Source: Nitrospirota bacterium (GTDB lineage: Bacteria > Nitrospirota > Nitrospiria > Nitrospirales > UBA8639). Taken from it: a stretch of 63,369 nucleotides of DNA. Below, one piece after another: positions 9,235 to 42,674 of the stretch (the stretch's first letter is position 1; each line of letters begins with the position of its first letter). Below the pieces are notes generated by a model. That model saw nothing but the letters and a program-made list of their open reading frames with translations, ran no database searches and had not been told where the DNA came from. Location: contig JAQBUF010000012.1 in NCBI GenBank assembly GCA_027623995.1, forward strand, positions 1 through 63,369, written 5' to 3'. A program made the translations under genes and the position numbers.

Positions 9235-9251
9235 TGGCTTCCGATGTGTCA

Positions 9252-9288
9252 ATTTTGCCTGATGGTTTAATGACCATCAGGGCAAAAT
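9252..9288 (+). terminator. Stem-loop inside the exopolysaccharide operon
   Basis: ATTTTGCC-TGATGG (9252-9265) pairs with CCATCA-GGGCAAAAT (9274-9288), a 14-bp stem with one bulged G and an 8-base loop. No T-run follows, so it looks more like an RNA-stability or attenuation element than a full intrinsic terminator. It separates the exporters from the Wzz-kinase gene. Confidence 0.5.
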
Positions 9289-9400
9289 GTTGTGCGTTCG
9301 TAGAACACCAGAGAGTCGGGTGTTAGGCAAAAAGTGTTCAAGGTGGTTGTAGGCTGAGTAAATGTCAGTAAAAAATTTTTGAACGATGGAGCGAAATCCT

Positions 9401-11737: not shown

Positions 11738-12792
11738 GGACGGGGTCGATGTCGGCCCCTCAGGTAAAAGATCAGGCCGCGGTTTCCATTTTCGACCAAG
11801 TTCTACACTCGCTGGATACTCGCAAACGGGTATTAATTCTCGGGGAAAGCGAGTTGATGGGGGACCTGATCAGGATCCTGACTACCAAGCGTCGTCATTG
11901 GTTTGACGTCGTTGGGGTTCTTACGAATGAGAGCAATCGGGTTGGGCAGTCCATTCTTGGAAAGCCCATCTTGGGACTGGTTACCGAGTTATTTGAATTG
12001 GTTGAACGGTTCCAGGTCCAGACCATTGCCATCTGCGTGACGGACCGTCGGGGAAGTATGCCTTTGGATACGCTCTTGGATCTCAAATCCATGGGACTAG
12101 AGGTCATTGATGGCCATCAGCTGTATGAAAGTGAGTGTGGTCGGCTATCCATCGACGAGTTAAAGCCTAGCGCGCTGATCTTTTCATCAGGTTTTCAGCG
12201 TCGCACTGGCATGTTGTTGCTGAAACGTCTGGAAGATGTGATTGGGGCTTCATTGGGTTTAGTCTTACTGGCTCCGTTGATGGCTTTGGTTGGTTTTTTG
12301 ATTAAGCTCGATTCAACTGGTCCGGCCCTTTATAAACAAACACGGATTGGACATCGGGGTTGTCCCTACGTGTTATGGAAATTTCGATCCATGCGCCAGG
12401 ACTCTGAAGGGGATACTGCACAATGGGCGCAGGTGGGTGATGGTCGAGTGACCCGAATGGGTCGATGGCTTCGATTACTTCGTATCGATGAATTGCCTCA
12501 GTTCTTTAACGTCTTGAAAGGCGAAATGAGCTTGGTGGGGCCACGACCTGAACGGCCCATATTTGTTCAGAAATTACGACAACAGATTCCGTATTACGAC
12601 CTGCGTCATACCATTCGACCTGGCCTTACAGGATGGGCGCAAATCCGCTTTAATTATGCTGCGTCCGTTGAGGACTCACATATGAAGTTACAGTATGACC
12701 TGTATTACGTGAAACATTTATCAGTCTGGTTCGACCTTTCCATTCTTTTTCGGACCATCCGAGTGATACTGATGGGATCTGGAGCTCGCTAA
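11734..12792 (+). CDS. Undecaprenyl-phosphate sugar (hexose-1-phosphate) transferase, short form
   Basis: A 352-residue protein of the bacterial sugar transferase family (WcaJ/WbaP/EpsB type) that starts glycan assembly by moving a sugar-1-phosphate to undecaprenyl phosphate. The N-terminal 150 residues form a Rossmann-like domain (RVLILGESELMGDLIRIL). A membrane hairpin follows (ASLGLVLLAPLMALVGFLI), then the catalytic region with KFRSMRQD, LRIDELPQFFNVLKGEMSLVGPRPE and the RPGLTGWAQIRF signature. The exosortase-associated form normally begins with four or five membrane helices; none is present here. The start overlaps the preceding stop (ATGA). Confidence 0.9.
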   Translation: MRTGSMSAPQVKDQAAVSIFDQVLHSLDTRKRVLILGESELMGDLIRILTTKRRHWFDVVGVLTNESNRVGQSILGKPILGLVTELFELVERFQVQTIAICVTDRRGSMPLDTLLDLKSMGLEVIDGHQLYESECGRLSIDELKPSALIFSSGFQRRTGMLLLKRLEDVIGASLGLVLLAPLMALVGFLIKLDSTGPALYKQTRIGHRGCPYVLWKFRSMRQDSEGDTAQWAQVGDGRVTRMGRWLRLLRIDELPQFFNVLKGEMSLVGPRPERPIFVQKLRQQIPYYDLRHTIRPGLTGWAQIRFNYAASVEDSHMKLQYDLYYVKHLSVWFDLSILFRTIRVILMGSGAR

Positions 12793-12795
12793 TCT

Positions 12796-13728
12796 ATGGA
12801 TGAACGCATGGTTGAAGAGAGCATCGTGGGTGGTCGAACGCATTGCTTGAGCTTCGATATTGAGGAGCACTTTCAGGTTGCGGCGTTTGATAGCCCGGCA
12901 AGGCGTCGTCAGTGGCAATCACTGGAAAGTCGTGTCGAAGAGAATACAGAAAAAATATTGGAATGTTTGGATGCCCATCATGTCAAAGCCACGATGTTTG
13001 TGTTGGGGTGGGTCGCTGAACGATATCCCCAATTCGTTCGACGGATGGCTGAGGCTGGGCATGAAATTGCGTCGCACGGATATGGGCATGATCTTATTAC
13101 CGTTCTTACTCGAGATCAATTCCGCGAAGATGTGAAACGGGCGAAAGCCGTACTGGAAGATGCCACCGGCATGCCGATCATCGGCTATAGAGCTCCGACC
13201 TTTACGATTACACAAGAAACATTGTGGGCGGTCCCGATTCTGATCGAAGAAGGGTATGCCTACGATTCAAGTATTTTTCCTGTCTATCATGACCAATACG
13301 GAATTCCCGGTGCAAATCCATCTCCACATTTGCTCTCGACGCATTCAGGGACGTTATGGGAAGTCCCTCCTTCTACGTGCAAAATTGGGTGGACGAGAAT
13401 TGCGGTCGCTGGCGGTGGATATTTTCGATTTTTCCCGTTCTGGCTGTTGATGAGTCTCATGCGAAAAGTAGAACGTGAGGGGGAATCGTTAGTGTTCTAC
13501 TTGCACCCGTGGGAATTTGATCATGGCCAACCACGGATGACGGGCCCTCTTCGGTCACGCATTCGCCATTACTTCAATCTCAATAAAACCGAAGAACGGT
13601 TCCGGCGCTTACTTCAAGAGTTTCCCTTCGCACCCATTCGGGAATCTCTTCCGATGATCGGCCGACTCTACCGTCAATCTCAGCAGGACCCTAAGGGTAT
13701 TTTTTGTTCAATACCAGCGACCGTATGA
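12796..13728 (+). CDS. Polysaccharide deacetylase, exosortase-locus type (NodB fold plus DUF3473)
   Basis: A 310-residue protein with the NodB-type deacetylase motifs SFDIEEHFQ (catalytic Asp and first metal Asp/Glu region), EIASHGYGH (metal-binding His pair) and GYRAPTFTI, and a C-terminal DUF3473 region with FYLHPWEFD. This exact combination is typical of polysaccharide deacetylases in exosortase/PEP-CTERM loci. It removes N-acetyl groups from an exopolysaccharide; no signal peptide is visible, so action in the cytoplasm or at the membrane face is likely. It follows the sugar transferase by three bases, so translation is probably coupled. Confidence 0.92.
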   Translation: MDERMVEESIVGGRTHCLSFDIEEHFQVAAFDSPARRRQWQSLESRVEENTEKILECLDAHHVKATMFVLGWVAERYPQFVRRMAEAGHEIASHGYGHDLITVLTRDQFREDVKRAKAVLEDATGMPIIGYRAPTFTITQETLWAVPILIEEGYAYDSSIFPVYHDQYGIPGANPSPHLLSTHSGTLWEVPPSTCKIGWTRIAVAGGGYFRFFPFWLLMSLMRKVEREGESLVFYLHPWEFDHGQPRMTGPLRSRIRHYFNLNKTEERFRRLLQEFPFAPIRESLPMIGRLYRQSQQDPKGIFCSIPATV

Positions 13729-13753
13729 CCGATGAAGTGGTAGTAGGATAATT

Positions 13754-14323
13754 ATGGTTGCTTCTTCAATCCTTGATCTTCCCATCCCGGCTCCAACTGA
13801 GTCCCTGGTTTCCCCATGTGACCCCCACTCATGTTGGTATCTCGTGCACGTCAAATCTCGGGCGGAAAAATCTGCCGCCGTTCATCTTGAACGACTCGGC
13901 CTTGAATCTTTTTGTCCTCAATTGAAACAAGAAAAGATCATTCGGCTGGTTCGGCGAGATATTATGGTCCCATTTTTCCCAGGCTATGTGTTTGTGAAGT
14001 TTGATCCTATGTTTCAATATCGAGCCGTCCAGTATTCAACGGGGGTTCGAAAAATAGTGACCTTTGGAGACACCCTCGCGCGGGTGGATTCATCCATTAT
14101 TGAGACTCTGCGCGAAAGAATGACTAAGGGGTGTGTGGACGTGTCAAACTCTTCTAGCTTCCAAGCAGGACAAAAAGTTCGAATCCATGAGGGCCCTTTG
14201 CAGGGCTTTGAGGCGGTATTCGAATGTGAAATGAGTGACCACCAACGAGTCACCTTGCTCTTGAAAACCGTGGCGTATCAAGCTCGAGTTGTTGTTCCGG
14301 TTAGGCAGATCACCACTCTCTAA
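13754..14323 (+). CDS. NusG/RfaH/UpxY-family transcription antiterminator
   Basis: A 189-residue NusG paralogue. The N-terminal NGN domain starts at WYLVHVKSRAEKSAAVHLERLG and includes the FPGYVFVKFD strand. The KOW domain (QAGQKVRIHEGPLQGFEAVFE) is at about residues 130-160. Specialised NusG paralogues inside polysaccharide operons (RfaH, LoaP, UpxY) help RNA polymerase read through long operons; this one likely acts on the surrounding cluster. The start has AGGA five bases upstream. No obvious ops element (GGCGGTAG) was seen in the locus. Confidence 0.92.
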   Translation: MVASSILDLPIPAPTESLVSPCDPHSCWYLVHVKSRAEKSAAVHLERLGLESFCPQLKQEKIIRLVRRDIMVPFFPGYVFVKFDPMFQYRAVQYSTGVRKIVTFGDTLARVDSSIIETLRERMTKGCVDVSNSSSFQAGQKVRIHEGPLQGFEAVFECEMSDHQRVTLLLKTVAYQARVVVPVRQITTL

Positions 14324-14807
14324 ACATTCACACTTGAAACCAGACGTGCTTAATGAGGATGAAGACTCCTAAGGGAATGGTGAGCCTCGTGCCTTTCTTG
14401 TGAACATGGCTCTGTTCATTTTTTCTTTGATTTCGAGTGATGTCGTCAATAATTTCTTTGTGGTTCGTTAATAAAAAGAAGATGGTCTCCGAAGTTATTT
14501 AGTAAGAAGATGTGTGTGGTTATACGGTATTCCCGCGACATTGAGAGGACACTAGCTCTTTCACCCTTTTAGGCCATGGACGCCTCGGGGGAATTGAATA
14601 GTGGGAATGGATTGATGACAGGACGGTTCTCTGGTCATGCACCGGAATGGCGGCAGCCCGCGTATCGAATGTTTGAGAAGTTTTTGTGATTGAATGGTGT
14701 TGGTGGAAGAAAATCTTCTACTGAGGGTCACTCAGTGAGTTGAGCCACTTGGTGTATGCTCCAAAATCCCCTGTAAAGAAAAGCCGCGAATGTCATTAAC
14801 AAAGCTT
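14324..14807. other. Intergenic gap, no gene seen
   Basis: About 480 bp between the antiterminator and the convergent epimerase gene. There is no supported reading frame, no clear hairpin with a T-run and no sigma-54 match that I could see. Confidence 0.5.
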
Positions 14808-15794
14808 CTACATGAGGGAGGCGTGGCGGATTCGTTCCTCAAAATATTCAATCGTTTTCAGGAGCCCGTCTTTTAATGGAATCTGTGGCTCCCATCCGAG
14901 TCTTTCCTTCGCCAGGCTAATATCAGGACATCGTTGCGTTGGATCATCCGACGGCAGCGGTTGGTACTCGATAGTCGTCTTGGCCCCCGTCAGTTCGACA
15001 ATGAGATTTGCCAATTCGGCAATCGTAAATTCTTCAGGATTGCCGAGATTGACGGGGCCAGGGAAATCATCAGGGCTGGCCATAAAGGCGATGAAGGCCC
15101 GGATCAGGTCGTCAACATAGCAGAACGATCGTGTCTGCGATCCATCACCAAAAATAGTAATGGGTCGATTCAGCAAGGCTTGAATAATGAAATTGGAAAT
15201 GACCCGTCCATCATTCGGGTGCATATGCGGACCGTACGTATTAAAGATGCGTCCCACTTTCACGGGGAGCTGAAATTGTCGGTAGTAATCAAAGAATAAC
15301 GTTTCCGCGCATCGCTTGCCTTCATCGTAACAAGCGCGAAGTCCTACGGGATTCACATTTCCAAAATAATCTTCTTTTTGCGGATGCACATGAGGGTCGC
15401 CGTAGACTTCGCTTGTTGAGGCTTGAAAGATTTTCGCTTTCAGTCGTCTTGTTAGACCTAACATATTAATGGCGCCATGAACGCTTGTTTTCGTGGTTTG
15501 CACTGGATCAAATTGGTAGTGGATTGGAGAGGCCGGGCAGGCCAGGTTGTAAATTTCATCGACTTCGACGAACAGGGGAATCGTGATGTCATGCCGGACC
15601 ATTTCAAATTGGGGATGGTAGAGCAGAGGAAGAATATTGTCTTTCGTGCCAGTATAAAAATTGTCCGCACAAATAACTTCATGCCCTTGATCAAGAAGTG
15701 TTCGGCAGAGGTGGGACCCGAGAAACCCAGCGCCGCCAGTCACTAATATTCGTTTTCGTTGAAATTGCTTCATGGTATTGAGTTGTTCATGCAT
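14808..15794 (-). CDS. UDP-glucuronate decarboxylase-like SDR (UDP-xylose synthase)
   Basis: An extended short-chain dehydrogenase with the NAD-binding motif GGAGFLGSH, then [21 protein letters not shown] and the active-site YDEGKR (Tyr-x-x-x-Lys), followed by [28 protein letters not shown] and LACPASP are typical of UDP-glucuronic acid decarboxylases, which make UDP-xylose for glycans. It is about 315-330 residues depending on the start. I give 15794; 15773 starts just ahead of the conserved N terminus and is equally possible. It is divergent from the next glycosyltransferase, which shares its promoter region. Confidence 0.88.
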
Positions 15795-15918
15795 AACGAG
15801 AGAAGTCCTAGATCGTATTTGTCTTAAGTGGGTAAAAGCCCGAGGGACTATACCAAACACGGTCTCTCTCAGCAATTCACTGGCAGATCAGCTTTATTGG
15901 CTAGACACCTGACAGATT

Positions 15919-17088
15919 ATGAAAATCCTCATGATTGCCCCACAACCGTTTTTTGAACCACGAGGAACACCGTTCAGTGTTCTCGGACGACTGAAGGCGT
16001 TGTCATCACTTGGTCATGAAATCGATTTGGTGACGTATCATATTGGGCAAGATGTGCCAATTCAAAATGTCGTAATTCATCGCATTCCTTCGATATTTTT
16101 CATCAAGCGTATTTCCATTGGTCCTTCAGTGACCAAATTGTTTCTGGATGGGTTTCTCTTGGCTAAAACTGTCCAAATGCTGTTTCGAAATTCGTATGAT
16201 CTTGTGCATACCCATGAAGAGGCGAGTTTCTTTGGATTTATGCTGGCGAAGCTCTTCAATATTCGTCATCTCTACGACATGCATTCTTCATTGCCTCAAC
16301 AGCTTGGCAATTTTCAGTACAGTAAATTTGCTCCTTTGATTCACCTGTTTCGTTGGTTTGAGGAAACCGTGATCCATTCGAGTCATGCCGTGATTACGAT
16401 CTGTCCTGCACTGAAAGAGCAAGTAGAAAAGATCAATACTGGGGTGCCTCACGTCATGATCGAAAATGTGTCGACGGAGGGAGACCCTCAGGCGGTTCCT
16501 GCCAATGTCATTCAGGAATTTAAACAGCAGTATGCTTTAGAGGGTCGAAAAGTTGTCTTGTATTCAGGAACGCTTGAATCCTATCAAGGCCTAGATCTCT
16601 TGTTTTCGAGTGCAAAAGTCGTGAGTCGTATTCACAAGGATGTGCTGTTCTTGATCATGGGCGGAAGGCCGGATCAATTGGAAGCCTGCCAACACACGGT
16701 GGCGCAGCTGGGGCTTGAGGCTCATGTGCGCTTTACGGGAATGCAAGCACCGAGTGAAGTCTTGAAAGCCACGGCGGCTTGTGATGTGTTGGTTTCTCCA
16801 CGGATTAGCGGAACCAATACCCCCTTGAAAATTTATAGCTATCTGCAATCAGGAAAGCCCATCGTGGCGACGGATTTATATACGCACACTCAAGTCTTAA
16901 GTCGGGATGTGGCGGTACTCGCCGCGCCAGAAGATGAAGCGTTTGGTAAGGGTATTTGTCAAATGTTGGAAGATCTTCGATACGCGCAAACTCTCGGGCG
17001 TAACGCACGTGCCTTATTCGATCGAGATTATAGTTACGACACCTTTCTTCAAAAGACGAATCGCGTCATTCAACTCGCAATGAGATAA
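15919..17088 (+). CDS. Glycosyltransferase family 4
   Basis: A 389-residue GT-B glycosyltransferase. The N-terminal nucleotide-fold half begins MKILMIAPQPFFEPRGTP, and the PRGTPF segment forms the acceptor loop. The C-terminal half carries VVLYSGTLESYQGLDLL, VLFLIMGG and the donor-binding region VSPRISGTNTPLKIYSYLQSGKPIVAT, matching the GT4 E-x7-E area although the first Glu is replaced. It adds a sugar to the growing lipid-linked glycan in the cytoplasm; donor and acceptor cannot be read from sequence. The asparagine synthase-type gene follows after only five bases. Confidence 0.9.
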   Translation: MKILMIAPQPFFEPRGTPFSVLGRLKALSSLGHEIDLVTYHIGQDVPIQNVVIHRIPSIFFIKRISIGPSVTKLFLDGFLLAKTVQMLFRNSYDLVHTHEEASFFGFMLAKLFNIRHLYDMHSSLPQQLGNFQYSKFAPLIHLFRWFEETVIHSSHAVITICPALKEQVEKINTGVPHVMIENVSTEGDPQAVPANVIQEFKQQYALEGRKVVLYSGTLESYQGLDLLFSSAKVVSRIHKDVLFLIMGGRPDQLEACQHTVAQLGLEAHVRFTGMQAPSEVLKATAACDVLVSPRISGTNTPLKIYSYLQSGKPIVATDLYTHTQVLSRDVAVLAAPEDEAFGKGICQMLEDLRYAQTLGRNARALFDRDYSYDTFLQKTNRVIQLAMR

Positions 17089-17093
17089 CGATT

Positions 17094-19013
17094 ATGTGTG
17101 GCATTACGGGAATGGTGTATCACCAAGAGGGGGAACGGGCATCGCAAGATGTCCTGCAACGGATGTGCCGTTCACTGATTCATCGCGGCCCTGACGATGA
17201 AGGATATTTCGTGGACCGAACGGTTGGTCTGGGTATGCGCCGACTTCAAATTATTGACCTTTCCACGGGGCACCAACCTATTTCCAATGAAGATGGACGG
17301 TATTGGATTGTCTTTAACGGCGAAATTTTTAATTACCAGGAATTGCGTGATGATTTGGAGCGAAAAGGACATCGATTCAAAACTTCGACGGATACCGAAA
17401 CAATTATCCATGCGTATGAAGAATATGGATTGGACTGCGCGTCAAAACTGAATGGCATGTTCGCGTTTGCTATTTGGGATAAAGAGCTGAAGCAATTAGT
17501 GATTGCCCGTGATCGATTGGGTGTCAAGCCCTTGTATTACTATATGGACGAACGATGCCTGGTGTTTGGCTCGGAGCTGAAGGCCTTGTTGGCTTGTCCC
17601 GAGGTGCCGCGATCGGTGAATTTTGAGGCCCTGGATGTCTTTCTGACTTTTGAATATGTTCCCTCTCCCATGTCGATGTTTCAGGGGATCAAAAAGCTAC
17701 CACCAGGCCATTTTTTGATTCTCCGGCATGGCGTCATTGATATCAAGCCGTATTGGGCTATCGACTATGTCAGTGAGACACGAGAACATCCTGCTCAGGA
17801 CCTTTATGAATTATTAAAAGATGCTGTTCGCCTACGAATGATCAGCGATGTGCCGCTTGGGGCGTTTTTAAGTGGAGGCGTCGATTCGAGTGCGGTCGTC
17901 TGTATGATGAGCGAACTGGCCGATCAACCGATAAAAACCTTCTCCATCGGCTTTGATGATCCCTCCTACAACGAATTGAGTTATGCCCGTCAGGTTGCCA
18001 ATCATTTTAAAACCGACCATCAGGAACTGACGATTCAGCCAGACATTGTGGGATTGGTCGAAGGGCTCATTCACTATTTGGATGAACCGTTGGCTGATGT
18101 GTCGGTCTTCCCGACGTATCTGGTTTCCAAGTTGGCTCGCGAACATGTGACGGTGGTCCTGTCTGGAGATGGCGGTGATGAGTTGTTCGCGGGGTATGAT
18201 TGGTATGTCGCGGATCGTGTGGATCAATACTACCGACGTTTGCCCAAGTTCCTGCGAGAATCCTTGATGCCTGGCTTATTGAATCTCCTCCCTCCTTCAT
18301 CGCAGAAGAAAGGGCTGGTGAATAAAGCCAAGCGATTTGTGTCAGGCGCAGCGCAAGGCGAGCACCTTCATCATTATCGATGGACGATGTATGCCAATAA
18401 GGCCATGAAGCAGGAATTATATGATCCTTCGATGTGGGGGCGGATCCCGGCACGCGAGACTGAGGCCCGATTTGTGCCCTACCTCAACCAATTTCCACAA
18501 GCTCCACGAGTGTGGCGTCAGCAATATGCCGACATTCATTCCTTTATGGTCGATGATATTTTGGTCAAAGTTGATCGAATGAGTATGGCGAATTCTCTTG
18601 AGGCACGAACCCCATTTTTAGACTATCGATTGGTGGAGTTTGCCATGAGTCTACCCAGCGATCTTAACCTGCAAGGGCTCCAAACGAAGGCGCTTTTGAA
18701 ACAGTCGTTGAGAGGGAAAGTTCCTGATGAGATTTTGTATCGCAAAAAAGAAGGCTTTAGCATTCCCATGAAGAATTGGCTTCGCAAAGAATTAAAGCCG
18801 ATGATGGGCGATATCTTGTCAGCGGACCGGATTAAACGCGATGGGTACTTCAATAGCGTCTACATTGACAAACTCAAGGATGAGCATTGGCGTGGCACGG
18901 CGAATCATGCCCATGAGTTATGGTCACTCATGATGTTTGAAATTTGGAAAGATAAAATTTTCGACCCAACGCCTTCTCAGGCTCATGATCACGCTCAACT
19001 GACCCAGGCGTAA
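17094..19013 (+). CDS. asnB: Asparagine synthase-type amidotransferase, exosortase-locus type
   Basis: A 639-residue protein. The N-terminal class II glutamine amidotransferase domain begins MCGITGM with the catalytic Cys2, then HRGPDDEG and NGEIFNYQELR. The C-terminal ATP-pyrophosphatase domain carries SGGVDSSAV. The length and gene context match the amidotransferase found next to exosortase A systems, which probably amidates a sugar acid or other precursor rather than making free asparagine. All catalytic motifs look intact. It follows the glycosyltransferase closely and precedes the GlpD-like gene. Confidence 0.9.
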   Translation: MCGITGMVYHQEGERASQDVLQRMCRSLIHRGPDDEGYFVDRTVGLGMRRLQIIDLSTGHQPISNEDGRYWIVFNGEIFNYQELRDDLERKGHRFKTSTDTETIIHAYEEYGLDCASKLNGMFAFAIWDKELKQLVIARDRLGVKPLYYYMDERCLVFGSELKALLACPEVPRSVNFEALDVFLTFEYVPSPMSMFQGIKKLPPGHFLILRHGVIDIKPYWAIDYVSETREHPAQDLYELLKDAVRLRMISDVPLGAFLSGGVDSSAVVCMMSELADQPIKTFSIGFDDPSYNELSYARQVANHFKTDHQELTIQPDIVGLVEGLIHYLDEPLADVSVFPTYLVSKLAREHVTVVLSGDGGDELFAGYDWYVADRVDQYYRRLPKFLRESLMPGLLNLLPPSSQKKGLVNKAKRFVSGAAQGEHLHHYRWTMYANKAMKQELYDPSMWGRIPARETEARFVPYLNQFPQAPRVWRQQYADIHSFMVDDILVKVDRMSMANSLEARTPFLDYRLVEFAMSLPSDLNLQGLQTKALLKQSLRGKVPDEILYRKKEGFSIPMKNWLRKELKPMMGDILSADRIKRDGYFNSVYIDKLKDEHWRGTANHAHELWSLMMFEIWKDKIFDPTPSQAHDHAQLTQA

Positions 19014-19051
19014 TTCATTCTATTTCGTGAGGTGTCTGGTCTTGCCATTGT

Positions 19052-20827
19052 ATGGGTGATGCCGACACTGGAAATATCCATTCCCATATTTCACCAGAAT
19101 TTAAGTGCATGATGGAACGAAATCTTTCTCGGATGGCTCAAGACTCCTACGACCTTTTGGTCATTGGTGGTGGAATTTATGGGGTGTCGATTGCTAGAGA
19201 TGCTGCCCTCAGGGGGCTCCGCGTGGCGTTGGTCGAAAAAGTCGATTTTGGACATGCGACATCGTTTAATAGTTTGAAAATTATGCACGGAGGGTTTCGC
19301 TATTTACAGCACCTCAATATTACCCGCATGCGAGAGTCGATTGCGGAGCGTTCCACGTTAATGCGTATTGCGCCGCATCTGATTCGTCCGCTGCGTTTTC
19401 TCATGCCTACGTATGGACATGGACTCAAGAGTAAAGAAGTCATGCGTATCGCCCTCATGCTCAACGATCTCATTGGGTGTGATCGAAATTATCAGGTGCA
19501 AGCCCAATGTCATCTACCAAACGGATATGTGATTTCTAAGTCAGAATGCCTCGATTTTGTGCCAGGGTTGCGCAAGGAAGGCCTCACCGGTGGGGCGATT
19601 TGGTTTGATGGACAACTTCAAAGCTCTGAACGACTGATTATGGGTGTATTGAAAAGTGCAGTGTCGGCTGGAGCAGATGTGGCGAATTACGTCGAGGTGA
19701 CGGGATTGATGAAACGGCAGGAAGCTGTCTGTGGTGTTCATGTACAGGACCGCTTCACGGATGAGCGGTTTGATATCCAGGCCCGCATGGTGGTGAATGC
19801 GTCGGGTCCTTGGGTGTCAGATGTGTTGGGGTTGTCTCCTCGTGAGTCAGTGGGTGCGCAACAGCCGTTATCCAAAGCCATGAACCTTGTGGTGAAGCGT
19901 CCTTTGACCACCCAATATGCCGTTGGCGTGTCAACACCGAAGGAATATCGGGATCGTCAAGCCGTGTTTCATAAAGGGTCGCGGTTATATTTTATGGTGC
20001 CCTGGCGAGGCTATTCTTTGGTAGGGACCACGCATACCTACTATGATAAATCGGCCAGTCAATTTCAGATCACGGCCGACGACATCCAAGACTTTCTTGA
20101 TGATTTTAATTCTGCGTATCCGCCAGCCAATCTTCAACGAGAAGATTTGTGCTTTGTGTATGCTGGGCTGCTCCCACGGAGTGAATGTGTGGATGGGAGT
20201 CAAGACGTGTCGTTACTGAAGCGCCCCAGCATTGTCGATCATGAATGCCAAGATCACCTCAAAGGGTTGGTGTCGGTGATTGGCGTGAAGTTAACCGAGG
20301 CACGATATGTCGCGGAGCAAGTGATCGATCTGGTATGTCAAAAGTTCGGCCAAGACCGAGGGGCTTCTCAAACGGCCATTCTTCCAATTGATGGGGGAGA
20401 AATACATCCTGGCCAGATTGATGAACGGAATGCTGAGCCGATGTGCCCGCAATACCTGACAAACCTCTATGGTTCTGCATCTGATCGGGTATGGAACTAT
20501 GTCAGAAACGATCCTGATCTCGGTCATCCCGTATGTGCTGACTCTCCAGTCCTTAAGGCGGAAATCGTTCATGCTGTTCGTGAAGAAATGGCCATGACGC
20601 TCAGCGATATCGTGCGGCGACGAACAGAGTTAGGGACGTTCGAAAGTCCTGGCAAAGAGGCGTTGAGAACGACAGCGGCGGTGGCCGCACGTGAGTTGAA
20701 CTGGAGCCCAGAACGGCAGGAATCCGAATTGACACAAGTCATGAATTCATATGCCACGCGGTTTCCTTGGCCTCAAGCCCAGAAAAATATTTCTCGTGTC
20801 GAGTCTTTTGTCGAGGTCGGGTCCTGA
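19052..20827 (+). CDS. glpD: GlpD-like FAD-dependent glycerol-3-phosphate dehydrogenase
   Basis: Up to 591 residues. The FAD motif (LVIGGGIYGVSIARDAALRG) is followed by the GlpD hallmark HGGFRYL and by VNASGPWVSDV, with the GlpD C-terminal helical domain at the end (REEMAMTLSDIVRRR). The family oxidises glycerol-3-phosphate to dihydroxyacetone phosphate and passes electrons to quinone. Its place within the polysaccharide cluster suggests a specialised role, perhaps on a glycan precursor (inference). The N terminus is uncertain: ATGs at 19052, 19109 and 19112 all lack a strong ribosome binding site, and homology starts around residue 33. Confidence 0.85.
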   Translation: MGDADTGNIHSHISPEFKCMMERNLSRMAQDSYDLLVIGGGIYGVSIARDAALRGLRVALVEKVDFGHATSFNSLKIMHGGFRYLQHLNITRMRESIAERSTLMRIAPHLIRPLRFLMPTYGHGLKSKEVMRIALMLNDLIGCDRNYQVQAQCHLPNGYVISKSECLDFVPGLRKEGLTGGAIWFDGQLQSSERLIMGVLKSAVSAGADVANYVEVTGLMKRQEAVCGVHVQDRFTDERFDIQARMVVNASGPWVSDVLGLSPRESVGAQQPLSKAMNLVVKRPLTTQYAVGVSTPKEYRDRQAVFHKGSRLYFMVPWRGYSLVGTTHTYYDKSASQFQITADDIQDFLDDFNSAYPPANLQREDLCFVYAGLLPRSECVDGSQDVSLLKRPSIVDHECQDHLKGLVSVIGVKLTEARYVAEQVIDLVCQKFGQDRGASQTAILPIDGGEIHPGQIDERNAEPMCPQYLTNLYGSASDRVWNYVRNDPDLGHPVCADSPVLKAEIVHAVREEMAMTLSDIVRRRTELGTFESPGKEALRTTAAVAARELNWSPERQESELTQVMNSYATRFPWPQAQKNISRVESFVEVGS

Positions 20828-20891
20828 TTGGGGCAAAAACTTTGAACCATGGGATTGATCCCACTATCGCAAAATCATAGGTGAGCAACAT

Positions 20892-21884
20892 ATGGAAACT
20901 GGACAACGACTCTTAATTACCGGCGTATCGGGTTTCACCGGTGGGCATTTGTGCGAACGTCTCGCGAGTCAAGGATATATCATCAAGGCCTTGGTGCGCG
21001 ATCCTAGTAAGTGTGAACGATATAGCCGAATGGGCGTGGAACTGGTGAAGGGCGATTTACGTGATCCGCATGCTGTGGAAATCGCCATGAAGGGGGTGGA
21101 TGTGGTGTATCACATTGCCGCCTTGTTCCGGCAAGAAAATGTGTCCCGGAAGGACATGTGGGACTGCAATCTTGAAGCCACTCGTCATTTGTTGGATGCG
21201 GCAGTCAAGGAAGGGGTCAAACGTTTTGTCCACTGTAGCACCATTGGCGTTCATGGAGATGTGAAGAATCCCCCAGCGACTGAAGAGTCCCCCTATGCCC
21301 CTGGTGACTATTATCAGGAATCAAAAACTGAGGGAGAGTTATTGGCCTTAGAATATAGCGCCCAAGGAAAATTACCGATTGTGGTGTTTCGTCCTGGGGG
21401 AATCTATGGGCCGAGGGATATTCGATTTTTAAAACTGTTTAAGGCGATTCAACGTGGACGATTCGTTATGCTGGGGTCGGGAAACATTTTGTATCAACTC
21501 GTGTATATCGACGATTTGGTTGATGGCATTATTCTGTGTGGGACGAAACCAGAAGCCGTGGGTAATGTGTATGTGCTGACGGGTGATGCCCCATTTACGT
21601 TGAATGAATTTATGGCCACGATTGCCAAAGTGGTGGGGAAGTCTCCACCTCGGTGGCGCATTCCAGTCTGGCCCGTCTATCTGGCCGGGTTTGCCTGTGA
21701 GTTGTTGTGTAAGCCCTTTGGCATTAATCCTCCACTCTATCGACGCCGAGTTGATTTTTTTAGAAAAACGCGATCCTTTGATATCAGTAAGGCCAAGCGG
21801 GAGCTTGGGTTTCAGCCAAAAGTTGATACGTTGAACGGTCTGACGCGAACAGCGGAATGGTATAAACAGGAAGGGCTCTTGTAG
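20892..21884 (+). CDS. NAD-dependent epimerase/dehydratase (dihydroflavonol reductase-like)
   Basis: A 330-residue extended SDR. The NAD(P) motif is GVSGFTGGHLCERL, and the Tyr-x-x-x-Lys site is in DYYQESKTEGE. HCSTIGVHGD and FRPGGIYGPRD are typical of the family. Probable function is modifying a nucleotide sugar or lipid-linked sugar for the polysaccharide; the substrate cannot be read. The start is supported by AGGTGAG six bases upstream. It lies between the GlpD-like gene and the truncated carbamoyltransferase on the same strand. Confidence 0.9.
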   Translation: METGQRLLITGVSGFTGGHLCERLASQGYIIKALVRDPSKCERYSRMGVELVKGDLRDPHAVEIAMKGVDVVYHIAALFRQENVSRKDMWDCNLEATRHLLDAAVKEGVKRFVHCSTIGVHGDVKNPPATEESPYAPGDYYQESKTEGELLALEYSAQGKLPIVVFRPGGIYGPRDIRFLKLFKAIQRGRFVMLGSGNILYQLVYIDDLVDGIILCGTKPEAVGNVYVLTGDAPFTLNEFMATIAKVVGKSPPRWRIPVWPVYLAGFACELLCKPFGINPPLYRRRVDFFRKTRSFDISKAKRELGFQPKVDTLNGLTRTAEWYKQEGLL

Positions 21885-21953
21885 AAAAAGCCGAGTCGAG
21901 AAATATTGGAAATCCATCGTTCATTTTGAATAGACCCATGAAAAGGTGAGACC

Positions 21954-22811
21954 ATGATTGTTTTAGGCATTACGGACAGTATTACAAGTGGAGCTTCGAT
22001 TGTCGCTGACGGGAAGGTGTTAGCTGCCGTAGCGGAAGAGCGATTAAATCGTCAAAAAATGGCGATGGGCTTTCCTCGGCTTGCGATTTCGGAAGTGCTA
22101 AGAATTGCGTCATTGGACATCAAGGATATTGATCATATTGCCGTGGCGACCAACAGTTTATTTTGGCGTCCCGAGTCAACAAAGCTCGAAGATTACTTTC
22201 GGAAATCCAAAGAGAAAAGTCGCGATCTCTTTTTGGCTACGGGCTCATTTTTTGCCAAAGTGACGAATGGCAGTCCCATGAGCCGAAAAATTTATTACGA
22301 ATTAAAAGCCATGTTGACCAGGGGGCGAAAAGCCAAGATGCGTCAGTTGTTGGCGGAGGAATGGGGATATCGAGGCGAGGTATCCTTTATCGATCATCAT
22401 CTCGCGCACTGCGCGTCGGCATATTTTACCTCGGGCATGGAGAATGCCGTATCCATCAGCTTAGACGGGGCTGGGGATGGATGTTCTAGTCATGTCTATA
22501 AGGTGGAGAATGGCCAGTTTAAATTGCTCCATAAAATCGATAGTTACGATTCTGTGGGTAATTACTACGCCTATGTGACGCACCTCTGTGGGTTTCATGC
22601 GCATAAACATGAAGGCAAGATCACGGGCCTTGCAGCCTATGGAAAACCGACCTATGTGGATATGTTGAAAAAGTATGTGAGCTACAATGAAGGCAGTATT
22701 CACAATATTGGCGGATGTTTTGATTGGTCGGCTATTCGAAAACTAGAAGAAGAGCTCGGTCCCAAAACCGTCTTTTTTGGTGGTTTTGAAAGGTTGGAAC
22801 AGCGTGCGTAA
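21954..22811 (+). pseudogene. Carbamoyltransferase (NodU/CmcH family), truncated at 3' end
   Basis: The N-terminal 265 or so residues are intact: MIVLGITDSITSGASIV, AVAEERLNRQK, IDHHLAHCASAYF and SLDGAGDGCSSHVY (the ATP-binding kinase-like fold), and HKHEGKITGLAAYG. Normal members are about 570-620 residues, so the C-terminal half is missing. After ELG (about 22760) the frame runs into sequence that is antisense to prsK and stops at 22811. The start is good (AAGGTGAG). The protein would normally carbamoylate a sugar hydroxyl with carbamoyl phosphate; this version has lost the second half and is probably inactive. The truncation lies at the junction described in the findings. Confidence 0.85.
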
Positions 22812-24719
22812 TTGAGACTGGGGAATTCCTGGTCCAGAATCGATAATGGTAATGGCAACATTTCCATCTGTGGAGTCGGTGCGAACCTGAATCTTCCCTG
22901 CCCCTCCAGACGATTGTGAGGCATTCATCATGAGGTTCATAAATAATTGCTTAAATTGATCTGGTACGATTGAGACCGGAGGTAAAACTTGTTTCATGGA
23001 TAAGGCTGGTTCTTGCATGCTTGTGGATAGGGAGCGAATCGCCTCAATAATGATGTCATTGATATTGACGGTATGAAAAGACTCGGCTTGTTCGACGGTG
23101 ACCGACTTCGATTGTACGGAGAGCTTATTGATGAGGCCGGTCAGTTTCGTGACCGTATTCGTGACCGTTCGCATCGCGGATTCTTGGAAGGCGGGATCAT
23201 GGCCAAGAGTCTTCGCATTTTGAGCCACCATGGATAACCCCGCGATGAGCGTTTTGAGGTCGTGTAAATAAAAGGCTGAAAATCGACTGACCGCCTCCCA
23301 TTTCGCGGCGGCTGTTCGTTCCTCAGAAAGCTTGGTTTGCATTAATTGCACTGAGACGTAATGGGTGATTGAAGTGATGAGATCAAAGTCATCTTGCTGG
23401 TAGTGGCGGTCTCCAAATTGACGACTGAGGGTCATAAAGCCGTGTAAGGTCCCGGTAGTTCGTAAGGGAACGCAAAGAAGGGCTTTCGTCGAATTTAGGA
23501 AGGAATTCCATTCAGGTGATTCAGGTACCTCAACCTGTGAGAGCTCAATGATTGCCTCGTCTGATTGCAACAATTGATGGATGGGGTGGTTAAAGGGAAG
23601 GGGTTGGGGCGGTGCTTCGATATTCGCGGATCGAACCTGGTGGAATCGGCCGTCAGCTTCATACAGTAGCCAGGTGGTGACGTGCTCGGCTCCAAATGTC
23701 CGAATCATCAATTCCAAACAATTGTCCAAAATGCTGTCAACCGAATCACACGTGCGAAATGCATCGGTCACCTCAATCCATTTGAGACGATAATTGTATT
23801 TTGATCGAAGGAAGTGTCGTGCGAGTAGCAGTCGAAGTTCAGTTTTGACTTGTCGTGAAGAGAGAATCACGATCAGCGCGATACTCGCTATGAATATGAC
23901 CAGCACGCTAATGGATTCACTCAGGGCCCAATCTGTTCTCCTGATTAATTCGCCAAGCCCGCCGACCACAATGAAATAGCCTCCAACAATGAGTAGGGTC
24001 ATTGAGGTGTAGAGAACTTGAGGGGAGATGGAAATGGCTCGGCTCATATTGAAAAACTGCCATCGTGCTAGACCAAAGCCGATGAGAATGATGGAGAGGA
24101 AGGTCAGGAGACCTTCCGATAACACCAAGCCCTCATTCCCTTGAAGGAAAATATCCAACTGACTCGATTTAATGATCGCAATCCCTGCCAAACTTCCAAA
24201 GCCAATGATGACAAACTTTATCTGATAGCGCAGAGGGTCACGGGAGGCTCGAAGCACTTGTTCCAATTGGGCTAATCCAACCACTAAGGTGACTAAAATA
24301 AAGAGACTGATGAGTTTGCCTTGAATGGCATAGATCTCGTGAAATTTTACAGATGAGAACAGCGTTGGGAAAAAGAGAAAGATTGTACAGAGGAGGCTCA
24401 GGGTGCAGAGCGCACGAAATCGCCAGGTTGTTTCGGAAATTTGTTCACTATGGTGCTCGTCAATGAAGGACGCACCCACTTTATACAAAGCGACGGGAAA
24501 CACAATTTATCCTGCCATAGACAACTGCTTCCACATAAGCGCTTGCTCGCTATCAAGGATTCCCAATAGGGTGCTGGCTTGAATCCAAGCGGTGCTGCCC
24601 AAGATGGCCACTAAGGCTTTTTCAACAGGACCGCGAGATCGTTTGAGAAGAATAACACCTGAGAGTATTAAGCATGAGAGGCAGCTAAGGAATAATGGGG
24701 TAAGCCAAACAAGGGGCAT
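22743..24719 (-). pseudogene. prsK: prsK histidine kinase (exosortase system), disrupted by a stop codon and 3' truncation
   Basis: On the minus strand the natural start is the ATG at 24719, with GAGG six bases upstream. The frame runs MPLVWLTPLFL... to WKQLSMAG, then hits a single in-frame TAA at 24507-24509. Without a frame change it continues for about 580 residues with membrane helices (to about residue 300), a GAF domain, a HisKA-like region (FSAFYLHDLKTLIAGLSM) and a HATPase domain (MNASQSSGG, DSGPGIP). It ends abruptly after TTKKDGFG, where the G2 box should follow. The layout is that of PrsK, which with PrsR controls PEP-CTERM genes. GTG at 24503 with AGGAT upstream could restart translation, but the ATP-lid end would still be missing. 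Confidence 0.85.
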
Positions 24720-24727
24720 AACCAACC

Positions 24728-25408
24728 TCAAGTCATGGCGGGAGGTGGCATATGGGTCAACAATGCTGGCCACATGTCATTGAGAAAAGTCACGCCGACC
24801 TCAAAGGCTTCTTCTGTGGTGCCGGAGACGGGGACAATAATGCGAACCAAGGAACCATCTGTTCGGTTGTTGGTCATCGAATCCCAGATCATATAGCCTT
24901 TGGCCCAGTATTCGCTTGCAATTACCCGACCGCGGTCATGGTACCAATATAAGACGAGTTGTTTATTATCGCCCTTTTGAATGAGGACTTTGTTAATGAG
25001 AATGGATTGTCCTCCGTGGGCAATGGGAATCGAAGCCATACTCGTGTCGGCAAAACTCCATCCTGCCCCAGGGAGACAGTTTTTTGGAGAATGGTAGGTG
25101 GCTCCAGATTTTTGGCTTTCATAATATCCAATGTAGAGTGAAATGGGGGCCAGGGGGGTCGTCTGTGTGACCTCTGACGATGAGGCCGTTGGATTATAGA
25201 TGCGCATTAAGTAATCGCTGACCTTAAGAATATCCAGAACTTTTTCTTCGAGAGGAAGTTCCTTCCCTTGCCAGTGGTTGGCAAGTACCATTGGAAATTC
25301 AGAGAAGGGCTTCTTGGCAATAATCAGTTCTCCATGCGAAAGCGATTGCATAAGACCTAACGTTCCCACGAGGATGAGCGATGCCACCACAAAAGGCCAA
25401 GGTTTCAT
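24728..25408 (-). CDS. epsI: Exosortase-associated EpsI family protein
   Basis: A 226-residue protein of the EpsI/DUF3485 family. One N-terminal membrane segment (PFVVASLILVGTLGLM) is followed by the extracytoplasmic domain with YIGYYESQKSGATYHSPKNCLPGAGW (the conserved H-SP-x-x-C-x-PG-x-GW block), INKVLIQKGDNKQLVLYWY and a conserved Arg-rich stretch. It accompanies exosortases and is thought to act in polysaccharide assembly or sorting; its reaction is unknown. The start at 25408 has GGAG six bases upstream. It lies just downstream of xrtA and ends eight bases before the prsK start, so the three genes form one operon. Confidence 0.92.
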   Translation of the reverse strand: MKPWPFVVASLILVGTLGLMQSLSHGELIIAKKPFSEFPMVLANHWQGKELPLEEKVLDILKVSDYLMRIYNPTASSSEVTQTTPLAPISLYIGYYESQKSGATYHSPKNCLPGAGWSFADTSMASIPIAHGGQSILINKVLIQKGDNKQLVLYWYHDRGRVIASEYWAKGYMIWDSMTNNRTDGSLVRIIVPVSGTTEEAFEVGVTFLNDMWPALLTHMPPPAMT

Positions 25409-25493
25409 AGTTTCTCCATTTGAAACAATCCGTGGGTTTTTGTGTTTCGAGAATGCCTCATATCTGATAGCAATTGGTTGGGTGTCATCATGG

Positions 25494-26384
25494 TTATAGC
25501 CTAGTTGCCGAATGGTGTTGCGGTTGCTTGCCGATTTTTGCGATGAGGATGCCGCAGCCAAGCAACAAGATAAATGCCACGACAAAAACGATCCATCCTT
25601 CAAAGGTATGATAAAAACCTTCCGCAGCTTCAGCGCCCCAATAGTTGGCTAATATGCCTGTTCCCGTGACTCGAAAGGCATTGGCAATAATGGCGATGGG
25701 GATGGAGAGCAATACTAGAGCCCAACGTTTCCACATTTGCCGCTGGGAAAAATAGGCATACACCGTTCCCAATGCCAGCAACGCCACGAGTGACCGAAGA
25801 CCACTGCACGCCTCGGCCACCTCTAATGTTGTTCCTGCTAAGGAAATGAGATTGCCTTCTCGTAGGACCGGAATACCTAAATTAAAGAGGCAAAAGGATG
25901 CGGTTTGTGCGGCAAAAATTTGCAAGGGAAAGGCGATCGTATTCACCACGATGGCTGGGAGCGGAATCATAAACAGGAGAAACACGATGGGAAGACTGAG
26001 TGTTATGAGAATACGTCTCCCGAGAATGAGAAGGATCAGTCCGATGATGACTCCAATAAAAGACACGCGTTGTGCAAATAATTCTGCGCCAACGGACCCG
26101 ATGATGAGCATGGTGACTCCCAGGATGAGGATGGGAATCCCAAACATATTCGGTTGGATGGGCAGGGTTCGAAGTTGGCCCCATCGCTCATAGACAAAAT
26201 AGGCCGACATAAAGGGGACAATAAAACCATGCGAATAGTTCGGGTCATTATCCCAGTCATAGAGTAAGCCTGCAAAAATTTCGTGATATAACGCTACCAT
26301 TAATCCAAGTAGGATAGTGCCGAGAGCGAGACCGAACCCCATCCCGAGGCTTTCACGTTCCTGTTGCTGTAACCCGACATTCAT
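25494..26384 (-). CDS. xrtA: Exosortase A
   Basis: A 296-residue integral membrane protein with about eight helices. The catalytic triad of the exosortase/archaeosortase family is present: Cys193 in EACSGLRS, Arg238 in NAFRVTG and His259 in FYHTFEGW. The family is believed to be a transpeptidase that recognises C-terminal PEP-CTERM tails, cleaves them and attaches the protein to an extracellular polysaccharide. It looks intact, although its partner prsK is broken. No canonical PEP-CTERM protein is encoded in the window. It is the first gene of the xrtA-epsI-prsK minus-strand group; an inverted repeat lies just upstream. Confidence 0.95.
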   Translation of the reverse strand: MNVGLQQQERESLGMGFGLALGTILLGLMVALYHEIFAGLLYDWDNDPNYSHGFIVPFMSAYFVYERWGQLRTLPIQPNMFGIPILILGVTMLIIGSVGAELFAQRVSFIGVIIGLILLILGRRILITLSLPIVFLLFMIPLPAIVVNTIAFPLQIFAAQTASFCLFNLGIPVLREGNLISLAGTTLEVAEACSGLRSLVALLALGTVYAYFSQRQMWKRWALVLLSIPIAIIANAFRVTGTGILANYWGAEAAEGFYHTFEGWIVFVVAFILLLGCGILIAKIGKQPQHHSATRL

Positions 26385-26766: not shown

Positions 26767-28149
26767 CTAATTGGATTGCTCGGGTTTAATCGTCGGGTAC
26801 AAATGATATTTTTTCAGCAACTTATAGAAGTCAGAGCGATATCTTCCGGCGATTTGAGAAGATCGTGAAATATTGCCTTCGGTAATCTGTAGCAAGGTTT
26901 TGAGGTAGTCACGTTCAAAGGATTCCTTGGCTTCGGTGAGTGGTGACAACATGCCTTTGCCGGATTGGCGAATAATGGGAAGAAGGTCTGGGGTAATCAT
27001 ATCTTGGGTAGACATAATCACTGCGTGCTCCACGACATTTTCTAATTCTCGAATATTGCCCGGCCAGGAATACACCGTCAATGTTTGTAGGGCATCGGGG
27101 ACAAATCCCCGAATGGCTTTATTGGAGCGTACGGCACTTTTCTTCAAAAAATGTTGTGCCAGCGAGGGGATGTCTTGTCTTCGTTCCCGAAGTGGCGGAA
27201 TAGCAATAGGAACAACCTGGATGCGGTAAAATAAATCCTCTCGAAAACGGCCTTCTTGGACAGCCAGGCTCAGGTCCTTGTTTGTCGCGGTAATGAGGCG
27301 GACATCAATTTTAATAGGTTGGCGAGCGCCAATGGGGACCACTTCACGCTCTTGGATCGCCCGCAACAGTTTGCCTTGCAGTGCAAGCGGCATTTCCCCA
27401 ATTTCATCAAGAAATAAAGTCCCACGCTGACCGGTTTCAAAAAGCCCCATTTTTGTTTGATAGGCCCCGGTAAAAGATCCTTTAGTGTGACCAAATAATT
27501 CGCTTTCAAAAAGAGACTCGGGAATCGCGGCACAATTGACCGCAACAAATGGCCCTGTTGATCGTGCGCTATTACAGTGGAGGACCCGTGCAATAACTTC
27601 CTTTCCAGTTCCCGTTTCCCCAGAAATACAGACGGTGGCATCGGTATTGGCCACTCGGCTCACTTGTTGCAAAATTGCCTGCATTTGTGGACTTCGCGCC
27701 ACAACATTGTCCATTCCATATAATTCCCCTACCAACATTTTGAGACGATGAATTTCCTGAGTCATGCGTTGTTGGGAGAGGGCTTTTTCGATGCACGCAT
27801 GCAGCTCCTTATCATCAAAGGGTTTGGTGAGATAGGAGTAGGCTCCTTTCTTCATCGCTTCGACCGCATCGGGAATGCAGCCATGAGCCGTGAGAATGAG
27901 GATGGGAAGCGCCGGGTGGAGTTGGAGCAATTCCTCCATGACTTGCATTCCGCTCATGTCCGGCATTCGGACATCGAGGATCACGAAGTCGTAGAGCGCT
28001 TCTTGAAGGTGAGCAATCGCGGCCTTGCCATTCGAGCAGACCGTGACATCAAATCCAAAAGAGGTTAAACGCATTCGTAGCAAGGTCAAGAGGCCTTCAT
28101 CATCGTCCACGACAAGAATGCGTTCCAGCGAAGTATTAGGGGTTGGCAC
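26767..28149 (-). CDS. glrR: Sigma-54-dependent response regulator (GlrR/QseF-like)
   Basis: A 460-residue NtrC-type regulator. The receiver domain has VVDDDEG, the phospho-acceptor in VILDVRMPD, and LTAHGCIPDAV. The AAA+ domain has the Walker A GETGTGKE, a sigma-54 contact loop of GSFTGA form (usually GAFTGA), Walker B LFLDEIGEM, and the R-finger region FREDLFYR. A Fis-type helix-turn-helix (LLQITEGNISRSSQIAGRYRSDFYKLLKKY) ends the protein. The pattern, particularly AHGxIPDAV and GRxRxxFYKLL, matches GlrR/QseF. The GTG at 28149 has AAGGAGG six bases upstream and overlaps the end of qseG by 14 bases. It should activate sigma-54 promoters once phosphorylated by the upstream kinase. Confidence 0.9.
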   Translation of the reverse strand: MPTPNTSLERILVVDDDEGLLTLLRMRLTSFGFDVTVCSNGKAAIAHLQEALYDFVILDVRMPDMSGMQVMEELLQLHPALPILILTAHGCIPDAVEAMKKGAYSYLTKPFDDKELHACIEKALSQQRMTQEIHRLKMLVGELYGMDNVVARSPQMQAILQQVSRVANTDATVCISGETGTGKEVIARVLHCNSARSTGPFVAVNCAAIPESLFESELFGHTKGSFTGAYQTKMGLFETGQRGTLFLDEIGEMPLALQGKLLRAIQEREVVPIGARQPIKIDVRLITATNKDLSLAVQEGRFREDLFYRIQVVPIAIPPLRERRQDIPSLAQHFLKKSAVRSNKAIRGFVPDALQTLTVYSWPGNIRELENVVEHAVIMSTQDMITPDLLPIIRQSGKGMLSPLTEAKESFERDYLKTLLQITEGNISRSSQIAGRYRSDFYKLLKKYHLYPTIKPEQSN

Positions 28150-28930
28150 GTGCTTCCTCCTTAGGTGGCAAGATGGTTTCAGATGGTGTAGTCGGAGGGG
28201 ATTTTTCCTTGAGCTCTTGATCAATTCGTCGGAGCGCATCGAGTTGCCTGGTCAGTTCCGACACCTTTTTTTCGCGGGCGTGTAAGGCTTGTTGCAGCGA
28301 ATAGTTGGAGGCCGACCCAGTTTTGAGTGCCCCAACTTCTTGGGTCAGTTCATGAACCTGCGCACTCAGGGATTTGACTTTGGTGTCCTGGGCTAACAAG
28401 AGTTGTTTGAGATCAGATGGCAGAAGCGGTTGGGGTGAATCGGGGGATCCCAACAATCCAAGGTCTCGTTCCAGTAATGCCTGAACCAACTCCCTCGTGA
28501 GATCAACGTGTGATGAGCCTTGAGATTGGGAGCGATTGAGTTCCTCTAAAAGCCATAACCACACGCGACTGGCTTGACTGAGGCGATTGGAGGGGGGCGA
28601 TTCCATAACTTTTTGAAAGTGATAGATCGCCGCATCTCGATTGGAATGTAGGGCGGTTAAGGCTTTGAGGAAATGTGCGTGATTGCACGTCTCGGACGTT
28701 CGACATTGAGACAATTGGTTGTCGGCGCGAGTCCCTAGCCCTTCAAGAAACTTTATCTCTTGGGGAGGAGGAGAGAAAATCGTCGAAGGAGACAGAACCG
28801 TTGATGCGCTAGATGGCGAGGCCATCGTATAGGGTGAAAATTCCTGGCACCCTGTGGTTCCCAGCAAGGAGGCATACATCAAAATGCTTCTTAGCCAATT
28901 GAAGGTGTTATGAAAATATTTACGATACAT
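28136..28930 (-). CDS. qseG: Lipoprotein of the GlrK-GlrR operon (QseG-like)
   Basis: A 264-residue protein with a lipoprotein-like signal (ILMYASLLGTTGC, Cys near residue 28), a Pro/Ser-rich linker, an all-helical middle region (NHAHFLKALTALHSNRDAA), and a C-terminal coiled coil (about residues 175-245). It lies exactly where qseG (yfhG) lies in the enterobacterial glrK-yfhG-glrR operon. In E. coli QseG is an outer-membrane lipoprotein that activates the kinase by contacting its periplasmic domain; by analogy this one likely senses envelope state. The sequence is divergent, so the assignment rests on position and architecture. The start at 28930 overlaps the glrK stop region by 11 bases. Confidence 0.72.
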   Translation of the reverse strand: MYRKYFHNTFNWLRSILMYASLLGTTGCQEFSPYTMASPSSASTVLSPSTIFSPPPQEIKFLEGLGTRADNQLSQCRTSETCNHAHFLKALTALHSNRDAAIYHFQKVMESPPSNRLSQASRVWLWLLEELNRSQSQGSSHVDLTRELVQALLERDLGLLGSPDSPQPLLPSDLKQLLLAQDTKVKSLSAQVHELTQEVGALKTGSASNYSLQQALHAREKKVSELTRQLDALRRIDQELKEKSPPTTPSETILPPKEEARANP

Positions 28931-30425
28931 GAAGGGCCTCTTGTTGTAATCCTGAAGGAATCCTGATGTTGACGCATGTCCCTTTGCCTCGTTCGCTGTC
29001 AATCCAAATGTTTCCCTGGTGAGCTTCCACGACTTTCTTGACCAAGGCAAGACCAATGCCACTGCCAAATCGTGCTCCGCCTTCAGGTGATTTTCCTTGG
29101 TAGAATCGCTCGAAAATATGAGGAAGGTCTTCTGGTGCTATCCCTGGACCTTCATCTCTCACCGTCAGAGCTGTCATGTGGGTGGTGACCTCATGACTAA
29201 GCGTCAGTGTAATGGGTGATCCATTGGGGCCAAATTTGAGGGCATTGGAAAGGAGGTTTTCTATGGCTTGCTCGATCCGAGTGCTGTCCAGGTTAAGAGT
29301 ATGATCTGTCGGTAATTGATCATTGAGTATAATCGGAATTTGCTTACGCTCAGCCAGGAATTGCACTTTATGCACGGATTGCTGAACAAGGTGAATCAAT
29401 CTTGTGGGCATAAAGCAATACGCCATCATATTGGCTTCCATTTTAGAGAGATCCAATAAGCTGGCGATGAGTTGGTTTAATCGTTGGCTACTGTCCAGCA
29501 AGATCTCAAGGGTCTGGCGTTGTTCGGGAGTCAGAGGCCCAGGAATTTGATCGAGGAGTAACTGAGTCCCTTCGCGAATGGAGGTGAGTGGTGTTCGAAA
29601 TTCATGAGAAATATTCGCCAGGAATTCGGCCTTCATCTGATCGAGTTCTTGGAGCTGTGTGCCCATTCCATTCACGGTATTGACGAGCTCTCGCAATTCT
29701 TGCGGAACCTCTCCTTGCACCGAAGCGTTAAAATTTCCTTCTCCAATTTGGCGGATTTGTCTTTGAACTCGTCGCAACGGTCGTAAAATACTAAAGGTGG
29801 CGACCCCAGCCATTCCCATGCCGAACACCACCACGGAGACCATTAACTGGCGGGTAATAGTTTCTGCCTGTTTCGCTCGTTCATGCGAATCACTCAACAC
29901 GGCGCTGATTTGCCGCTCGTGGAGGGCAATGTATGAGCGTATGGTTTGTGTCATTTCGTCGATGAGCGTATCTCGCTTGTTTTCGTATTGCGCTAAGGTC
30001 TGGGTGTACCGGCTGGCCCGTTCTACACCTTCACTGAGGAAGAGTGTTTGAAATTGATCGTGTGAATCCTGAATCTGTAGAAGCAGTGATTGGCCTTCTT
30101 CTGAAGGGTCCTGGTCAATGAGGGAAATCAACGTTTTTTTAAATTGCCCGGCTTCCTGAAGAAATTCTTTCAACAGGCTCGTATCTCGTAGGACGAGATA
30201 TTGCTTGTCACTTTTAAGCTGAACGAGCAGGCTAGTAATGAGGCGTTTCCCTGTTTCCACCGTGGGGTAATAGTAGGAGACTAATTCGGTGCCTAACTGC
30301 GATAACGTCCGCAGCTGGTTTAAAATAAACCAGTTCACCCCAATGACCAAACTCATGATCGTCAGGTATCCCAACGTCAGACGGACAAATATTGAAAGTT
30401 TGGAAATTTGATTCCAGAAATACAT
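28920..30425 (-). CDS. glrK: Sensor histidine kinase (GlrK/QseE-like)
   Basis: A 501-residue sensor kinase. The first membrane helix (LTLGYLTIMSLVIGVNWFIL) is followed by a periplasmic helical sensor domain (about residues 40-170) and a second helix (VVVFGMGMAGVATFSILRP). A HAMP domain leads to HisKA with the phospho-acceptor His in ANISHEFRTPLTSIREG. The HATPase domain has ENLLSNALKFG, DEGPGIAPED, FERFYQG and GSGIGLALVKKVVEAH, all intact. The upstream in-frame extension (to 30659) overlaps the argJ end and is doubtful, so I start at the ATG just before the first helix; it lacks a clear ribosome binding site. Operon order is kinase, lipoprotein, regulator. Confidence 0.9.
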   Translation of the reverse strand: MYFWNQISKLSIFVRLTLGYLTIMSLVIGVNWFILNQLRTLSQLGTELVSYYYPTVETGKRLITSLLVQLKSDKQYLVLRDTSLLKEFLQEAGQFKKTLISLIDQDPSEEGQSLLLQIQDSHDQFQTLFLSEGVERASRYTQTLAQYENKRDTLIDEMTQTIRSYIALHERQISAVLSDSHERAKQAETITRQLMVSVVVFGMGMAGVATFSILRPLRRVQRQIRQIGEGNFNASVQGEVPQELRELVNTVNGMGTQLQELDQMKAEFLANISHEFRTPLTSIREGTQLLLDQIPGPLTPEQRQTLEILLDSSQRLNQLIASLLDLSKMEANMMAYCFMPTRLIHLVQQSVHKVQFLAERKQIPIILNDQLPTDHTLNLDSTRIEQAIENLLSNALKFGPNGSPITLTLSHEVTTHMTALTVRDEGPGIAPEDLPHIFERFYQGKSPEGGARFGSGIGLALVKKVVEAHQGNIWIDSERGKGTCVNIRIPSGLQQEALHVS

Positions 30426-42673: not shown

Positions 42674-42674
42674 C

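Follow-up and report, generated by a model that had tools for sequence, protein, structure and literature searches.

Two convergent genes, a carbamoyltransferase gene of an EPS locus and prsK of the XrtA/PEP-CTERM system, stop resembling their families at a single point and have both lost their 3' parts. We consider it probable that the two genes were truncated by a recent deletion in cis, in the variable interval separating the EPS operon from the convergent xrtA-prsK locus. The window, meaning the whole stretch of DNA analyzed (63,369 nucleotides), is an entire contig of a MAG-like draft assembly of 3.13 Mb, 99.7% complete and in 110 contigs. It was compared mainly with G002, a genus mate with a complete chromosome. 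The relevant features are as follows.

7882-15875, no strand assigned: conserved XrtA-type EPS block, orthologous to the block that faces prsK in G002 (G002 comparison).
15919-21884, plus strand: EPS genes upstream of the broken transferase, without a close G002 counterpart there (G002 comparison).
21954-22763, plus strand: truncated 5' part of the carbamoyltransferase gene of the XrtA/EPS locus (PF02543, Carbam_trans_N, match; no Carbam_trans_C).
22764-22811, plus strand: non-homologous tail of the transferase frame, KTVFFGGFERLEQRA and a stop, antisense to prsK (comparison with relatives).
22760-22763, no strand assigned: probable deletion junction TCCC, which fits both parent genes (codon-level comparison with G017 and G002).
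22743-22760, minus strand: non-homologous tail of the prsK frame, TELFF and a stop, antisense to the carbamoyltransferase gene (comparison with relatives).
22761-24503, minus strand: body of prsK (TIGR02916) without G2 box and C-terminus (profile match, alignment of relatives).
24507-24509, minus strand: in-frame TAA in prsK (Glu in 9 of 9 relatives covering the site).
24507-24773, minus strand: N-terminal membrane part of prsK, severed by the in-frame stop (same frame as the prsK body).
24728-26384, minus strand: EpsI-like gene and exosortase A gene (xrtA), intact and collinear with G002 (G002 alignment).

The whole transferase frame covers 21954-22811 on the plus strand. A domain search of its protein matched PF02543 at positions 10-227 of 346 (E 3.8e-25), showing that the N-terminal domain is present, and returned no match to PF16861 (Carbam_trans_C). 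Aligned to its relatives, the protein is family-like through RKLEEELGP, with the Pro codon CCC at 22761-22763 as the last family-like one; beyond it the frame reads prsK antisense and encodes the unrelated KTVFFGGFERLEQRA. About 270 family-like residues precede this point. The nearest relative, in G017, is 78% identical, and four genomes carry intact frames, 594-647 aa long, at 43-48% identity; compared with relatives of that length, some 320-330 residues are missing. The truncation would remove the second half of the Kae1-like domain together with the entire C-terminal domain. Judged from family architecture, a remnant without about half of the protein should be non-functional.

The prsK product matches TIGR02916 over positions 96-646 of 679 (3.6e-90), and its score of 303.5 bits stays above the cut-off of 300 despite the truncation. 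It is family-like through TTKKDGFG, where the Gly codon GGG at 22763-22761 is the last of the family, and then runs into TELFF and the stop. In all nine fetched relatives DGFG continues into the G2 region, (I/L)GLYQCK, which is gone from the window frame, and the HATPase domain is accordingly incomplete, without its G2 box (GxGxGLYQCK). About 37-39 residues are missing relative to the 689-aa PrsK of G002, its nearest relative (79%). The preliminary description had recognized two convergent genes truncated tail to tail, with more than 300 transferase and about 40 kinase residues gone; these figures hold up well, and the two frames indeed overlap at 22743-22811, where the alignments of both leave their families. 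PrsK would lose the G2 box, which is needed for ATP binding, and would also be cut by the in-frame stop. By the same architectural reasoning, a PrsK remnant that has no G2 box and is split in this way should not work.

That stop, at 24507-24509, was overlooked in the first reading of the sequence. The TAA replaces an invariant Glu at codon 89 and separates the first 88 codons, leaving the N-terminal membrane region interrupted. Fifty G002 proteins aligned to the window over most of their length, which after removal of a few paralogue matches gives roughly 45 orthologous genes, and among these the prsK TAA is the sole internal stop; every other stop in the alignments precedes the start codon of its window gene. 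The presence of two independent lesions in one gene argues that prsK is truly dying. Alternatively, the shortened products could be functional and selected, as a kinase-dead PrsK and a short protein resembling the transferase, and the long open frames and the purifying-selection-like divergence from relatives are in keeping with this. However, prsK is split at codon 89 and has lost the invariant G2 box, the transferase is without PF16861, and neither short end was found in any of the 49 family genomes searched. All fetched relatives covering the join continue beyond it, and none has the same short proteins, one of the two findings that the preliminary description had named as refuting its reading. 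Retained function of the short proteins is very improbable.

Between the window prsK and that of G002, dN was 0.129 and dS was saturated, and the PrsK identity to the outgroup G022 was 59.9% for the window genome and 60.2% for G002. Rates relative to G002 and G022 thus gave no sign of accelerated divergence or relaxed selection in prsK, which suggests that the loss is recent, or that the lesions are unfixed or restricted to the assembled strain. On this comparison of rates, prsK appears to have been selected until very recently, or to be so still in sister strains.

The similarity of both genes ends on the same three bases, 22761-22763, and T22760 is also compatible since it would come from a conserved PrsK Ile codon. 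Codon comparison thereby narrows to 22760-22763 a shared end that had been placed at about 22755-22770. Judged from relatives, the possible microhomology at the join is at most 3-4 bases (TCC or TCCC), which suggests an end-joining or illegitimate process, not homologous recombination or a mobile element. Neither a flanking inverted repeat nor an insertion sequence nor Ns are present at the join. No k-mer of at least 12 bases at the junction recurs within the contig, and a 301-bp stretch across the junction matches only one place in the genome, making a repeat-driven assembly join unlikely. The junction fits an end-joining-like or replication-slip deletion, and it fits equally a chimeric molecule from library preparation.

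If such a chimeric molecule, or a mixture of strains, had led the assembler to skip the interval in this variable region, the deletion would exist in no cell or only in a minority strain. Joins at short homology are typical of chimeric molecules, and the MAG-like, fragmented state of the draft speaks for an artefact, as does the unaccelerated divergence of prsK, although the rates as such date the event as recent and do not separate a real deletion from an artefact. It is harder to reconcile an artefact with the independent in-frame stop in prsK, with a join that shows neither repeat nor Ns, with flanks that border one interval in the orientation conserved in G002, or with the fact that the lost ends, which a plain misjoin would have left on other contigs, were not found there. 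We regard an artefact as rather unlikely, though a serious contender, and a deletion carried by living cells as the better account. For annotation, both short proteins are to be marked as pseudogene remnants or as a suspected assembly deletion, not as new short variants.

Gene order around xrtA, to which the preliminary description had pointed, was compared with G002; a scan of genome contigs yielded a single close relative. Nearly the entire window is collinear with G002:C1 1360-1448 kb. The EPS block at 7882-15875, which includes a chain-length determinant, an EpsB_2 glycosyltransferase, a polysaccharide deacetylase and others, has an orthologue in G002 that is separated from the xrtA-prsK locus by a variable interval; the two converge there as they do in the window. 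From the shared sugar-nucleotide gene (14808-15875) to prsK, G002 has 41 kb and the window about 7 kb. Encoded within the G002 interval are prsR, EPS genes, a second carAB pair and a repeat protein of 2646 residues. The window genes at 15919-22763 differ from those of G002, as expected for a variable polysaccharide region; upstream of the transferase (15919-21884) they comprise glycosyltransferase-like, XrtA amidotransferase, FAD oxidoreductase and epimerase genes. G002 has no orthologue of the window's carbamoyltransferase, a point that weighs against the deletion. On both sides of the join GC is even and the orthologues are genus-typical.

The conserved convergent flanks and the shortened distance fit a cis deletion and argue against an inversion and against the random joining of contigs. 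A single inversion breakpoint, with a flipped segment and the reciprocal halves of both genes elsewhere, would also cut two genes at the same spot, and a second junction could lie beyond the contig's left end, which falls in the repeat-rich gene at 69-1490. Yet the flanks keep the relative orientation seen in G002, the reciprocal 3' ends are not in the assembly, and no inverted repeat flanks the join. We rejected inversion on synteny with G002 and give it almost no credence. A misjoin of unrelated contigs was also considered and is unlikely, as the flanks border the same G002 interval, GC is even and the junction is free of repeats. Deletion, inversion and misjoin had been offered side by side; the first is favored by the G002 orientation, the absent parts and the independent stop, while the second is contradicted and a misjoin of distant contigs is improbable.

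The assembly was searched for the missing parts. The lost prsK 3' end was not found in this 99.7%-complete assembly, nor was the lost carbamoyltransferase C-terminus, for which the best match was a paralogue of 35-36% on contig C48; the only PF16861 copy in the genome belongs to that paralogue. A small unbinned contig of the draft could nevertheless hold the missing pieces. The gene prsR directly follows prsK in G002, G001, G022 and G019, whereas neither the window nor the rest of the genome contains an orthologue, in tandem or elsewhere; the best match to the G002 PrsR is a 40% paralogue, the neighbouring regulator at 26767-28239. The earlier guess that prsR had been lost is borne out. The flanks thus stand in ancestral order and orientation, as defined by G002, and the interval between them is absent from the genome.

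In the favored cis deletion, at least about 2.5 kb of the variable interval would have been removed, taking with it the 3' end of the transferase, everything in between and the ~37 terminal codons of prsK. The deleted stretch would almost certainly have included prsR. The ends would then have rejoined through the possible 3-4 bp microhomology, leaving two pseudogenes.

PrsK and PrsR have been proposed as regulators of PEP-CTERM genes on the basis of phylogenetic profiles (PMC1569441), and in Aquincola tertiaricarbonis a transposon insertion in prsK abolished floc formation, although complementation was unsuccessful (PMC9850573). Here both XrtA and EpsI are intact, and the genome's 11 above-cut-off PEP-CTERM matches indicate at least 11 such proteins. 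The sorting system thus probably continues to operate without control by PrsK/PrsR. If real, this would mean that an organism retaining XrtA and PEP-CTERM proteins has lost PrsK/PrsR very recently.

A second two-component pair, a histidine kinase and a sigma-54 regulator, lies upstream of xrtA at 26767-30425 and is conserved in G001, G002 and G018. Its regulator scores 422 bits against the PrsR model, below the cut-off of 502.6. This pair could substitute for PrsK/PrsR. It is unlikely that this lineage, while keeping XrtA and no fewer than 11 PEP-CTERM substrates, has just shed its dedicated PrsK-PrsR regulators and moved control to the pair; if true, the shift would be a natural experiment in the rewiring of a sorting system.

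Several further features were observed. The gene at the contig's left end (69-1490; VTYTPTGGFSGTDSFTYHA...) is 38% similar to the repeats of the 2646-residue G002 protein downstream of prsR. About 3 kb at 41471-44541, between two collinear genes, have no G002 counterpart and include an ORF that by eye is VapC/PIN-like (42272-42673). An apparent insertion relative to G002 at 55422-58035, also between two collinear genes, carries ORFs that by eye are DNA methyltransferase-like and Vsr-like, and is possibly a restriction-modification island. As carB is an essential gene, its absence would have betrayed an artefact, but the carB in the G002 interval (G002:C1 1430787-1433984, carA adjoining) is a second copy, also seen in G019 (C237 676-3861), and the window genome keeps a housekeeping-type carB, its only one, on contig C9. 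In G002 and G019 the second carB adjoins the XrtA EPS locus or shares its contig; the two match each other at 75% and the housekeeping-type carB genes elsewhere at about 41%. The second carB might provide carbamoyl phosphate to EPS carbamoyltransferases.

The transferase remnant shares with carbamoyltransferases of the NodU/TobZ type (PF02543 plus PF16861), in their EPS-locus subgroup, the N-terminal Kae1-like part and the KHEGKITGLAA motif. Unlike them, it stops after its ~270 family-like residues, without Carbam_trans_C. The window prsK resembles TIGR02916 PrsK, the XrtA/PEP-CTERM system histidine kinase, in its xrtA/epsI neighbourhood and in its H, N and G1 boxes; it differs in being stopped in frame after 88 codons, in lacking the G2 box and C-terminus, and in having no adjacent prsR. 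As to the probable deletion, the one-point truncation of two genes, the missing intervening genes and the conserved order of the flanks are shared with ordinary chromosomal deletions that have short junction homology, and such a loss would be ordinary gene loss.
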